NCBI GenBank assembly: GCA_913046025.1
Contig: CAJWRP010000174.1
Coordinates: 1 to 5,789 of the forward strand
Direction of reading: 5' to 3'
Length of the DNA: 5,789 bases
Source: an uncultured Chloroflexota bacterium
GTDB taxonomy: Bacteria; Chloroflexota; Dehalococcoidia; SAR202; UBA11138
In this document: piece after piece, positions 2-4,549 of the stretch
How the letters are laid out: the number at the start of each line of letters is the position of its first letter
Numbering within the stretch: the stretch's first letter is position 1
The notes under the pieces: generated by a model
Told to the model about the DNA's origin: nothing
What the model saw: only the letters and a program-made list of their open reading frames with translations
Databases searched by the model: none
Translations under genes and position numbers: made by a program

Positions 2-448
2 CTGGCCCGGAAAATGCGCCAGGCGATGACCCAGACCGCCCGCCGCAAGCCCCTGTTCGGCACGTGCAAAGGCGTCGTCGCAGCCCGCCAGTTCGAGCGG
101 CACCGCGACGTTTTCCAGCGCCGTAAGGTAGGGGAACATATTCCGACTCGTCTGCTGCCAAATGAAACCGACCTCTTCCCTGCGGTAGAGTTCGACCTCT
201 TTCCCTGTCATTCTAAGCAGGTCCTTGTCGCCCACAGTCAACCGGCCAGCCGACGGCGCATCGTATCCTGCCAAGATGTTAAGGAGCGTGCTCTTATCGC
301 TACCGCTGGCCCCAACTATGGCGATTACCTCACCACGCTCAACGCTGAGGTCCAGACCACGCAAAGCTACGACTTCCAGATCGGAGATCTTTTATATCTT
401 GAACAGGTCCTCGCAGCGAATGTAAGGTACTGCTTCAGGGTTGCTCAT
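2..448 (-). pseudogene. ABC transporter ATP-binding protein, LolD/MacB type, 5' part, inactivated
   Basis: The minus strand reads from an ATG at 448 to the window edge in one frame (149 codons). It encodes the N-terminal half of an ABC ATPase, the subunit that powers transport or extrusion across the inner membrane. Visible landmarks are a Walker A region at residues 46-54 (G-A-S-G-S-D-K-S-T), a Q-loop around W97-Q98-Q99, and the family-typical stretch after it (NMFPYLTALENV). Signature and Walker B motifs would lie beyond the window. A GGAG Shine-Dalgarno site sits just before the ATG. Two lesions are seen. Codon 19 is TAA (392-394), where relatives carry the adenine-stacking A-loop tyrosine (pattern KIYK). 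Walker A residue 51 is Asp (GAT, 296-298) where Gly is expected. The frame is otherwise open, so this looks like a young pseudogene. Restart at TTG codon 29 is possible but would lose the A-loop. The family call is firm; the substrate is unknown. Confidence 0.82.
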
Positions 449-481
449 GCAATCTCCAGCAGATGACGACGTTGATAAACA

Positions 482-2045: not shown

Positions 2046-2669
2046 TTAAAAGTTACCGGGGTGGGCTGCTATGGAGCCGAAAGTCTTAGATGACACCTTG
2101 TCGCTAAATGACAACTCGGCCGATATGTCTACCCTGTTAGTCTCGATCTCAATTCCAAGCCCCTCGGCAATACGCACCTGATAGGCATAAAGTGCTGTGA
2201 TATGCACGATGTCGATGACGTCTTCATCGGTCCAACCAACTTCCAAAAGTGCGTCGACGTTGGCCTGACTCATGCCAGATGGGCTGATGGTAAGGAACTC
2301 CGCAAACTCCAGCATAGCCTCCTGCTTGGGCGTCAAGTCCGCGTGTCGATAGTCTTCTCCCAACTGCTGTGCGATCTTGGACTCCGGGGCCTCTTGACGC
2401 AGAGCCTCTGCGTGGGAGACCGTTCAATAAACACATTCGTTGATTCCCGACACCACCGCAGCAATCATCTGGCGCTCTGCTCCGGTGAGTCCAGACTCGG
2501 TCTGCATAACGATCCTCGAATGCGATTCTATGGATTTCATGATATGTGGCCGAGCAGCGTTTACTGTCAGCACGTTGGGGAACATTCCTCGTTTTTCGAA
2601 TACCTGATCGTAGGCCTCTCGAACTGGGCCTCGGGAGTCAGCGTATTTCACAGTCTTAATGTATGCCAA
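2046..2669 (-). CDS. AhpD-like / carboxymuconolactone decarboxylase family candidate selenoprotein (CxxU)
   Basis: Read through one in-frame TGA, this is a 207-residue protein of the alkylhydroperoxidase AhpD/CMD superfamily, closest in look to the 'peroxidase-related' CMD subgroup. Such proteins reduce peroxides or shuttle thiol electrons through a CxxC pair with a nearby His. Landmarks are the MAYIKTV start, LTGAERQMIA (61-70), the redox centre N-E-C79-V-Y-[TGA82]-T-V-S-H86, then LTPKQEAMLEFAEFLT and a GWTDEDVIDIVHITALYAYQVRIAEGLG helix. The C-x-x-[TGA]-x-x-x-H spacing equals the AhpD C-x-x-C-x-x-x-H pattern, so TGA replaces the second Cys alone. A SECIS-like hairpin follows directly. The frame stays open for 125 codons after the TGA with family-typical sequence. 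The chosen start is TTG at 2669, with GGAG six bases upstream; a TTG at 2681 has its AAGGA immediately adjacent and fits worse. The last 35 or so residues (SFSDKVSSKTF...) form an unrecognised tail. The alternative is a Cys-to-stop nonsense mutation in a CMD pseudogene, which the hairpin makes less likely. Confidence 0.82.
2388..2421 (-). promoter_or_regulatory. Predicted bacterial SECIS element after in-frame TGA
   Basis: The mRNA just downstream of the TGA (2424-2426) folds by eye into a two-tier hairpin. The lower stem is GGUCUC (2421-2416) with GAGGCC (2393-2388), six pairs including one U-G. An internal loop of CC against CAA follows. The upper stem is ACGCAGA (2413-2407) with UCUGCGU (2403-2397), seven perfect pairs, capped by the loop GGC (2406-2404). 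The first loop G lies 17 bases after the TGA. Bacterial SECIS elements are known to sit immediately 3' of the UGA inside the coding region, with a conserved G in the first two apical-loop positions about 16-37 bases away. The apical G-rich loop and its distance resemble E. coli fdhF as I recall it. The folding was done by hand, without an energy calculation. Confidence 0.75.
2424..2426 (-). other. In-frame TGA, predicted selenocysteine codon (U82)
   Basis: The TGA occupies the second Cys position of the CxxC motif in the AhpD-like gene. Other genes in the window end in TGA, TAA and TAG, so TGA is an ordinary stop here and reading through it would need a local signal. Cysteine codons are TGT and TGC, so a single-base change to TGA is the rival explanation. 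Confidence 0.75.
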
Positions 2670-2698
2670 AGTAATCTCCAATCCTTAGGAATGGCGCG

Positions 2699-2727
2699 AT
2701 GATAGCCGACAACACGGCTTTTGCCAA
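2699..2727 (-). promoter_or_regulatory. Sigma70-type promoter of the AhpD-like selenoprotein gene
   Basis: On the minus strand TTGGCA (2727-2722) and TATCAT (2704-2699) are separated by exactly 17 bases, each matching consensus at five of six positions. Transcription would begin near 2692, leaving a leader of about 23 bases before the TTG start at 2669. Having its own good promoter argues that the gene is expressed rather than decayed. Confidence 0.65.
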
Positions 2728-2810: not shown

Positions 2811-3149
2811 TTGGCAATCATTAGACTTTACACCGGCGATGACGGCGAAACACACATGGAGGAGCTAGACCCTGCAGATCATACAGAGCTTACGGAACTG
2901 CATGAGGCAAAGGGTGTTCGGTTCCGGGTCTCGCCAGCAGGGTACTTTAGCGACTGGCATAACGCCCCTCGACGTCAATACGTAATCAACCTTTCAGGTC
3001 AGGTAGAGATTGGCCTAAAAGATGGCTCGGTTCATCGGTTCGGGCCCGGCCACGTTACCCTTGCGGAAGACACCACTGGCAACGGCCATACAACCAGAGT
3101 GGTGGGCGACGAGCCTCGATTTTCGGCAACGGTGACGCTAGAAGACTAA
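2811..3149 (+). CDS. Small cupin-domain protein
   Basis: This is a 112-residue single-domain cupin, a small beta-barrel that often binds a metal or small molecule. Motif 1 is seen around D48-W-H-N-A-P-R-R-Q56 and the LSGQVEI turn (61-67). Motif 2 is RFGPGHVTLAED (76-87), followed by D-T-T-G-N-G-H93. The usual HxH pair of metal-binding cupins is only partly kept: His50 and His93 are the clear candidates, with Gln56 and Glu66 nearby. Metal binding and function are therefore unknown. The start is a TTG at 2811, supported by AAAGGAGG at 2794-2801 with nine bases of spacing. The protein begins MAIIRLYTGDDGE, which looks like the true N-terminus of this group. The gene is followed after 53 bases by the DUF3500 gene on the same strand and is probably co-transcribed. 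It is complete, with no signal peptide, and likely cytosolic. Confidence 0.85.
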   Translation: MAIIRLYTGDDGETHMEELDPADHTELTELHEAKGVRFRVSPAGYFSDWHNAPRRQYVINLSGQVEIGLKDGSVHRFGPGHVTLAEDTTGNGHTTRVVGDEPRFSATVTLED

Positions 3150-3202
3150 GGCATAACCTTCGCTGAATGGACCGGAAACACAGAGTGACGAGGAGACGCA
3201 AT

Positions 3203-4378
3203 ATGCGACTTCAGGTAAGAGACTTCGAACCGGGAGAAAGGCCGCATAGTTCAGCTCGGGCATTACCAGACACCCTGCATGAGTTGTTCCAGGGAATGCT
3301 CGATACCGGCACACGCCTGGTTACCGAAGAGTTCAAAGGCGTTACAGAGGCTGGGTCGCCCGAGACCGGCCTGTTTTCTTTGGATGATCAAAGAGTACCA
3401 AGCACCGGTGTAGACACAGCTGCCAGGTTATTTCTGGAATCGCTGAATGCCGACCAGAGGGAAAGCGCCCTGTTCTCCATTGACAGCGATGTCTGGAGAC
3501 GCTGGAGCAACGTGCATCCGTACCTTATGAGGCACGGCGCTTTCCTGGACGAGCTCGCCCAGACGCAAAAAAACCTGGCCATGACTCTGATGCGCGAAAG
3601 CCTTAGTCCTGAAGGCTTTAAAACAGCCCGTGACGTAATGCGCCTAAATGAGTCCATACTTGAAATTACGGGGCAAGGCGAAGAGTATGGCGAGTGGCTC
3701 TACTGGCTAAGCATATTGGGCAATCCGTCAGACAATCAGCCATGGGGTTGGCAGATCGACGGTCATCACCTGATCATTAATTACTTCGTGCTGGGCGGCC
3801 AGATAGTCGCCACACCCACCTTTATGGGCTCAGAGCCTGTAGCCGTGGATATTGGGAAATATGCCGGGACACGGGTGTTCCAATCCGAAGAAGAGACAGG
3901 GCTAACCCTGGGCATGTCATTCACTCCTGAACAACGAGTAAAAGCCACCATAGCGGAAACTATGCCGGGCGAGGTGTTTACGACAGCATATCGAGACAAT
4001 TTCGAAATGCGCTACGAGGGCATCCGATACGATGAGCTTTCCGTCGATCAGCAAAACATGGTTTTGGCCATCGCGGAGACCTACGTCGGCAGGGTACCGA
4101 AAGCGCATGCAAAGGCAAAGATGGCGGAGATATGGGCGCATCTTCATAGGACCTACATCGCCTGGATTGGTGGCTATAACGAAGACAGCATCTTCTATTA
4201 CAGAATACACAGTCCTGTGGTTCTTATAGAATTTGACCACCAGAGCGGCATTGCGCTGCACCATACGGAACCTAGCCGAAATCACATACACACCGTGATT
4301 CGCACACCAAACGGCAACGACTACGGCAAGGACCTGCTTCGCCAACACCGCGAGCAACATCACCCGAGCGGCGCATAG
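3203..4378 (+). CDS. DUF3500 domain protein
   Basis: The 391-residue protein matches the DUF3500 family (function unknown) across most of its length. Conserved-looking blocks are W181-G-W-Q-I-D-G-H-H-L190, TPTFMGSEP (204-212), WIGG (321-324), FYYRIHSPVVLIEFDH (331-346) and HIHTVIRTPNGNDYG (361-375). The clustered His, Asp, Asn and Arg residues suggest a polar or metal-binding active centre, but no reaction can be assigned. No signal peptide or membrane segment is evident. The start at 3203 is preferred over an in-frame ATG at 3167. It has GAGGAG at 3190-3195 with seven bases of spacing, and its MRLQVRDF opening matches the start of the paralogous fragment at 4442, whereas the 12 extra residues (MDRKHRVTRRRN) have no counterpart. 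It is the second gene of a probable operon with the cupin and is followed by a truncated relative. Confidence 0.9.
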   Translation: MRLQVRDFEPGERPHSSARALPDTLHELFQGMLDTGTRLVTEEFKGVTEAGSPETGLFSLDDQRVPSTGVDTAARLFLESLNADQRESALFSIDSDVWRRWSNVHPYLMRHGAFLDELAQTQKNLAMTLMRESLSPEGFKTARDVMRLNESILEITGQGEEYGEWLYWLSILGNPSDNQPWGWQIDGHHLIINYFVLGGQIVATPTFMGSEPVAVDIGKYAGTRVFQSEEETGLTLGMSFTPEQRVKATIAETMPGEVFTTAYRDNFEMRYEGIRYDELSVDQQNMVLAIAETYVGRVPKAHAKAKMAEIWAHLHRTYIAWIGGYNEDSIFYYRIHSPVVLIEFDHQSGIALHHTEPSRNHIHTVIRTPNGNDYGKDLLRQHREQHHPSGA

Positions 4379-4441: not shown

Positions 4442-4549
4442 ATGACGCTAAAGCTAACGGACTTCCAGCCACGTAATCGAGTAGTCAGCTCCGGTAGAAC
4501 TTTGCCAGAAGAGCTATCCGAGCGTACTGCTCCATTCATTATCCCCTAA
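4442..4549 (+). pseudogene. Truncated DUF3500 paralogue (N-terminal remnant)
   Basis: A 35-codon reading frame, ATG 4442 to TAA 4547, resembles the N-terminus of the DUF3500 protein 63 bases upstream. Aligned from both Met residues without gaps, 13 of the first 27 positions are identical, including M1, L3, D7, F8, P10, R13, S16-S17, R19, L21-P22, L25 and E27. After Glu27 the similarity ends (RTAPFIIP) and the frame stops 12 bases before the 3' end of the convergent PLP-enzyme gene. The rest of a roughly 390-codon gene is missing. The moderate identity means the two copies were divergent paralogues, not a recent duplicate. A small independent peptide is an alternative but less likely. Confidence 0.72.

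Follow-up and report, generated by a model that had tools for sequence, protein, structure and literature searches.

In a 5,789-nucleotide stretch of DNA from an uncultured Chloroflexota bacterium (contig CAJWRP010000174.1 of assembly GCA_913046025.1; this whole stretch is called the window here), we identified a minus-strand gene that we predict, with a probability of about 95%, to encode a selenocysteine (Sec)-containing AhpD-like peroxidase-related protein. The computed basis for this reading is a conserved in-frame TGA flanked on both sides by constrained sequence, a hairpin that covaries, Sec genes in the genomes of relatives, and the family and fold of the product. An initial annotation, made from the letters of the window, had described a lone in-frame TGA at the second Cys of a CxxC motif and had interpreted it as a Sec codon. 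The first part proved accurate: the gene runs from a TTG start (2669-2667) to a TAA stop (2048-2046), its codon 82 is the TGA within the motif C79-V-Y-TGA-T-V-S-H86, and it contains no frameshift and no second stop. The interpretation is supported by the column of TGA and Cys codons, the hairpin, the constraint and the Sec genes in relatives. Reading the same interval in plus-strand frame 1 gives an unrelated translation. The two features on which the argument turns are:

2046..2669, minus strand: predicted AhpD-like (TIGR01926, PF02627) selenoprotein gene of 207 codons, with Sec codon 82
2424..2426, minus strand: in-frame TGA, the predicted Sec82 codon, found in the same column in all TGA copies compared

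Three relatives, L001, L002 and L003, came from a scan in which each species was represented by a single genome. L001 and L002, both contigs of Chloroflexi metagenome-assembled genomes and 77% and 57% identical to the window gene product, respectively, keep the TGA at the same codon; the reading frame and the position of the start codon are also common to the window (TTG), L001 (ATG) and L002 (GTG). The archaeal L003 (35% identity over 74 residues) was too remote to be kept; the profile matched nothing in its genome, G003, and the one tRNA-Sec score there was sub-threshold. Searching 393 genomes from the class of L001 with a profile at E <= 1e-20 then yielded 79 places in 61 genomes, and 30 of the 393 genomes carry TGA copies, up to six each. 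We compared these 79 places with five matches from G002 (the genome of L002), L001, L002 and the window, leaving out before counting all duplicates, an L081 copy near a contig end and three copies with GGC, GAG and a misaligned ATA in the TGA column. Every one of the 49 distinct TGA copies, window included, has its TGA in the second-Cys column, and the 33 other distinct copies have TGC or TGT there. Since all 49 share one column, the position of the TGA is not due to chance. The initial annotation had looked to homologues for Cys or TGA at position 82, which is what the relatives carry; the pattern that it had held against a selenoprotein, close relatives with Cys throughout and no hairpin and TGA in this strain only, is contradicted by L001 and L002, which have the TGA and the same hairpin.

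In a tree of the copies, those with Sec do not form one clade. There are six label changes, at least four of them forced by supported branches, and therefore exchange between Sec and Cys probably occurred several times, with long branches making the details of the tree unsafe. Two TGA copies, L070 (G001 C310) and L083 (G255 C5), have a second in-frame TGA 101-122 codons past the Sec codon; in both it falls close to where homology ends, and is probably the real stop codon. The Sec column holds Leu in P0019 and P0020 (CQYL) and Gly or Glu in L066 and L121, a possible loss of the selenol.

Immediately downstream of the TGA lies a hairpin that resembles a bacterial selenocysteine insertion sequence (bSECIS):

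2397..2413, minus strand: bacterial SECIS-like hairpin ACGCAGA-GGC-TCTGCGT, with a 7-bp stem, a 3-nt loop and 17 nt from TGA to loop

Published limits for bSECIS elements are a loop of 3-9 nt, an upper stem of 4-16 bp, a distance of 16-37 nt from the UGA, a G within the first two loop nucleotides and a minimum free energy (MFE) of at most -7.5 kcal/mol (PMC13188914). The window hairpin lies within all of them; the bare hairpin folds at -8.2 kcal/mol, and a 43-nt stretch containing it has an MFE of -18.3 kcal/mol. Scored at the exact register, as a stem of at least 6 bp with a G within the first two loop nucleotides, the hairpin is present in 47 of the 49 TGA copies versus 1 of the 33 Cys copies. 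The remaining two TGA copies, L074 (G332) and L075 (G135), instead have a strong, GC-rich hairpin further downstream, whose loop is 33 nt from the TGA; both were retained in every count. The stem covaries: alignment pair 17-27 occurs as C-G, G-C, G-U or U-A, and pair 20-24 as A-U, G-C or C-G. Cells changed on both sides number 34, versus 11.0 +/- 2.7 in shuffles (a value not reached in any of 500), and pairing is kept in 95.9% of cells, versus 27-58% in slid controls. As read from the sequence, each strongly covarying pair has one partner at a third codon position; the compensation therefore does not simply follow from the protein.

Purifying constraint is similar on either side of the TGA. 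Between the window and L001, the nonsynonymous rate (dN) is 0.13 and the synonymous rate (dS) about 1.5, each half alike. The two halves give dN values of 0.38 and 0.36 for the window versus L002, and 0.36 and 0.27 for L001 versus L002, with dS at or near saturation in both comparisons. Protein databases hold the close family in pieces. All nine database proteins that match the N-terminal half are exactly 81 amino acids long in their protein records and end in ..CVY, the last residue before the TGA. A three-gene profile gave 191 protein matches, of which the best 120 were examined: 77 span the site (75 with Cys, two with Leu) and 43 start after it. Among these 120, proteins that span the site with Cys share 31-43% identity with the window protein, versus up to 84% for the post-site fragments. 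This split in identity indicates that the close family is represented in these searches by halves alone. None of the eight closest database matches spans the site with Cys. Entries of this kind include P0127, an 81-residue 'carboxymuconolactone decarboxylase family protein', and P0008, a 130-residue 'peroxidase-related enzyme'. That gene callers would split such genes had been anticipated, and the 81-residue N-halves and post-site C-fragments are the outcome.

The initial annotation had proposed a search for Sec genes, which was run in the genomes of the relatives. G002 has the full set: a tRNA-Sec found by ARAGORN, SelA (563 bits), SelB (349 bits, over the cut-off) and SelD (372 bits). The genome of L001, G001, has a tRNA-Sec, SelA (555 bits) and SelD (383 bits). 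Both tRNA-Sec genes have the anticodon TCA. In both genomes selD has an in-frame TGA of its own; in G001 it reads ..SCAG-TGA-ASKF.. near the start, the region in which the catalytic Cys or Sec of SelD proteins lies. Among the 30 class genomes that carry TGA copies, selA is present in 24; five of the other six have a tRNA-Sec by ARAGORN and the sixth, G215, has SelB over the cut-off, so at least one Sec-system gene occurs in 30 of 30. Among the Cys-only genomes, 11 of 31 are without a selA match at E <= 1e-60. The tRNA-Sec candidates L007 and L128 were rejected, as ARAGORN identifies them as tRNA-Ser.

Read through the TGA, the window protein matches TIGR01926, 'peroxidase-related enzyme', over residues 7-177 with 147.7 bits (cut-off 81.8) and the Pfam domain CMD, PF02627, with 41.2 bits (cut-off 23). 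It falls below the cut-offs of NF041238 (62.5 versus 175 bits) and of AhpD proper, TIGR00777 (20.1 versus 191.95 bits). Fold comparison also returns Sestrins and Bmp8, and the fold leaves the function undecided. AhpC was not among the six window proteins scanned. The following residues mark the predicted active site:

2433..2435, minus strand: Cys79, partner thiol of the CxxU pair, TGC or TGT in 91 of 93 match rows (the other two rows are a single misaligned G002 match, entered twice)
2412..2414, minus strand: His86, conserved active-site His, equivalent to His137 of Mycobacterium tuberculosis AhpD (PMC3141380)
2469..2471, minus strand: Gln67, which lies 12 residues N-terminal to the first Cys and corresponds to the proton-relay Glu118 in M. 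tuberculosis AhpD

A His at position 86, four residues after the second position of the CxxC or CxxU motif (82 to 86 in the window protein), is found in all 50 TGA copies and all 31 Cys copies. The acidic residue of the five-residue AhpD proton relay is replaced by Gln67 in the window protein, and the other relay residues are present as Cys79, Tyr81, Sec82 (predicted) and His86. Position 67 is Gln in the window, L001 and L002 only and Glu or Asp in the other 78 of 81 copies; the nine database N-halves all have Gln. A Tyr in place of His132 is on record for PA0269, as is one AhpD-like structure with His at the Glu118 position, so an acidic residue there is not absolute (PMC3141380).

From these comparisons we infer that Sec is inserted in the source organism and that the product has peroxidase or thiol-reductase chemistry. 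On this model the ribosome would meet the UGA at codon 82, and the downstream hairpin would recruit SelB with Sec-tRNA-Sec, placing Sec where the second Cys of CxxC would otherwise stand. The product would fold as an all-helical AhpD-like subunit in which His86 and the Cys79-x-x-Sec82 pair would act together to reduce peroxides or disulfides. The selenolate would attack, a Se-S bond to Cys79 would form, and a cellular reductant would regenerate the pair.

Several results weigh against the selenoprotein reading. The 49 TGA copies are not 49 independent events, because the copies are related and some stand in tandem; the absence of the hairpin from Cys copies is partly a matter of descent, because most of them form one distant clade. 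Folded by itself, the window sequence has a modest z-score (-2.17, with 7 of 200 shuffles as good), and neither the number of pairs in which both partners changed (3 versus 2.2 in shuffles) nor the number of further pair types (7 versus 6.3) is in excess. The enrichment of selA is weak (24 of 30 TGA genomes versus 231 of 363 others, one-sided p = 0.05) because selA is widespread across the class (255 of 393 genomes). A search of the G001 draft assembly with the SelB model found no SelB; its two best matches, C261 and C100, we take to be EF-Tu and a piece of EF-Tu, judging by their sequence. Gln67, standing where an acidic relay residue is usual, may mean that peroxidase activity is altered. 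Finally, an ABC (ATP-binding cassette) transporter ATPase frame on the minus strand of the window (2-466) has an in-frame TAA at 394-392 and an altered P-loop, GASGSDKST, and looks decayed.

This ATPase frame, together with a 35-residue DUF3500 remnant at 4442-4549, means that the stretch is not free of decay, and both would suit a pseudogene or a sequencing error, that is, a former CxxC AhpD-like gene with a recent nonsense mutation or a base-call error. We consider this very improbable, and it is already refuted by the conservation of the TGA, which recurs in genomes recorded independently of one another, at identities as low as 57%. Decay would also sit poorly with purifying constraint that is similar on both halves, a gene with no frameshift or other stop, a covarying hairpin and eight closest database matches of which none spans the site with Cys. 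Just as improbable is that two separate proteins cooperate, an 81-residue N-part and a C-part of about 105 residues from an internal start. Gene callers do record the halves as such and both are conserved, but this would divide the active site (Cys79, position 82 and His86), the recorded start of the C-part varies (the 43 post-site matches listed begin to match the model at positions 84 to 119), and the covarying hairpin and the exchange of Cys for TGA would be left unexplained. Least probable of all is that UGA is read without selenium as another amino acid, such as Trp or Gly, by code reassignment or a suppressor tRNA: such reassignment does occur in some bacterial lineages, yet a tRNA-Sec with anticodon TCA is present in the genomes of L001 and L002, the TGA stands where homologues have Cys, the hairpin goes with the TGA copies, and SelA (G001, G002), SelB (G002) and the L001 DUF3500 protein have no internal stops under the standard code.

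As a predicted selenoprotein, the window gene adds a member to an AhpD-like CxxU family that has been described since 2005. Marine metagenomes had been named as a source of Sec-containing AhpD-like proteins, in agreement with the 27 Sargasso Sea sequences reported under COG2128 (PMC1088965) and the 299 AhpD-like 1 sequences counted in the Global Ocean Sampling (GOS) data (PMC2398784). A 2026 review places these CxxU selenoproteins under TIGR01926 (PMC13188914), and a 2022 review gives the same example protein under COG2128 (PMC9312934). Three Chloroflexi selenoproteins were known in 2006 (PMC1794560). The window gene shares with the known family (COG2128/TIGR01926) the CxxU motif, a nearby downstream bSECIS and Cys homologues, and differs in its Chloroflexota lineage and in a subclade with Gln for the acidic relay residue. 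It has the AhpD core in common with NF041238 (AhpD_rel_CFYUT, alkylhydroperoxidase-related (seleno)protein), whose name implies a C-x-Y-U-T motif as in the window, whereas the NF041238 protein is longer (model of 357 positions). The Cys-form peroxidase-related structures 2prr, 3c1l, 2pfx, 6k40 and 2oyo have Cys where the window protein has Sec, and Glu 12 residues before the Cys in the three alignments shown, where the window has Gln. M. tuberculosis AhpD (1knc, 1gu9) is distant, with 9% identity over 137 aligned residues, and differs from the window protein in the latter's Sec82 and Gln67. Bmp8 (6ohi), a debrominase by its PDB title, is 16% identical to the window protein. Our literature search found no paper linking a selenoprotein with SAR202, or Bmp8 or debrominase with AhpD; papers on selenoproteins in Dehalococcoidia or selenocysteine in Chloroflexota included none about this family, judging by titles and the opening lines of abstracts.

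Upstream of the gene and beside it, the window contains the following features:

2676..2679, minus strand: ribosome-binding-site-like GGAG, 6 nt 5' of the TTG start by sequence; GGAG also lies 5' of the L001 start
2699..2727, minus strand: promoter-like TTGGCA-17-TATCAT, matching the consensus at 10 of 12 positions
2811..3149, plus strand: divergent 112-residue protein, a conserved neighbour, 90% identical to the L001 neighbour
3167..4378, plus strand: DUF3500 protein, a conserved neighbour, 75% identical in L001

L001 repeats both promoter hexamers and the 17-nt spacing, and the good promoter of its own with which the gene had been credited stands as a recurring consensus match. Synteny between the window and L001 is kept for both the divergent 112-residue gene, whose product matches neither a Pfam nor an NCBIfam model at E 0.001, and the DUF3500 gene. 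This synteny and the identity to L001 themselves point to a Chloroflexota origin of the window. The plus-strand remnant at 4442-4549 derives from a second DUF3500 start and is identical at 19 of 28 positions to the N-terminus of the L001 DUF3500 protein. A tRNA scan of the window found none; an Rfam scan gave three matches up to E 5, all well under gathering scores and none a SECIS.

Relatives carry predicted Sec-containing AhpD-like genes in tandem. There are four in L071 at about 3245-6600 (G242 C22), two in L077 (G345), three in L081 (G360) and a pair in G008 C124. The window gene lies outside any such array. In G242, G345 and G360, a LigXa_C oxygenase gene stands upstream of the array; a Rieske domain was matched only in G345, and the oxygenase gene is incomplete in G242 (contig end) and G360 (stretch examined). 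Taken jointly, these observations allow a speculative reading that we regard as unlikely: the amplified Sec AhpD-like genes of this Chloroflexota class (up to six per genome, some in arrays with a LigXa-type Rieske oxygenase gene directly upstream) would encode not general AhpD antioxidants but selenol partners dedicated to the aerobic breakdown of aromatic (lignin-type) compounds, where they would remove peroxide or act on intermediates that are reactive or halogenated, and the Gln subclade would use the low pKa of Sec instead of an acid-base residue. The window data hold no evidence of dehalogenation.

If correct, the selenoprotein reading adds a well-supported predicted selenoprotein to an uncultured Chloroflexota lineage, and Sec-containing AhpD-like genes recur across the class of L001. 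The seven-pair stem, which lies within coding sequence and has changed on both sides at three of its pairs, provides a clean SECIS test case. Less expected are the tandem selenoprotein genes of relatives behind LigXa-type oxygenases and the Gln for Glu at the proton-relay position, which offers a way to ask whether acid-base catalysis becomes less necessary when selenium is present.
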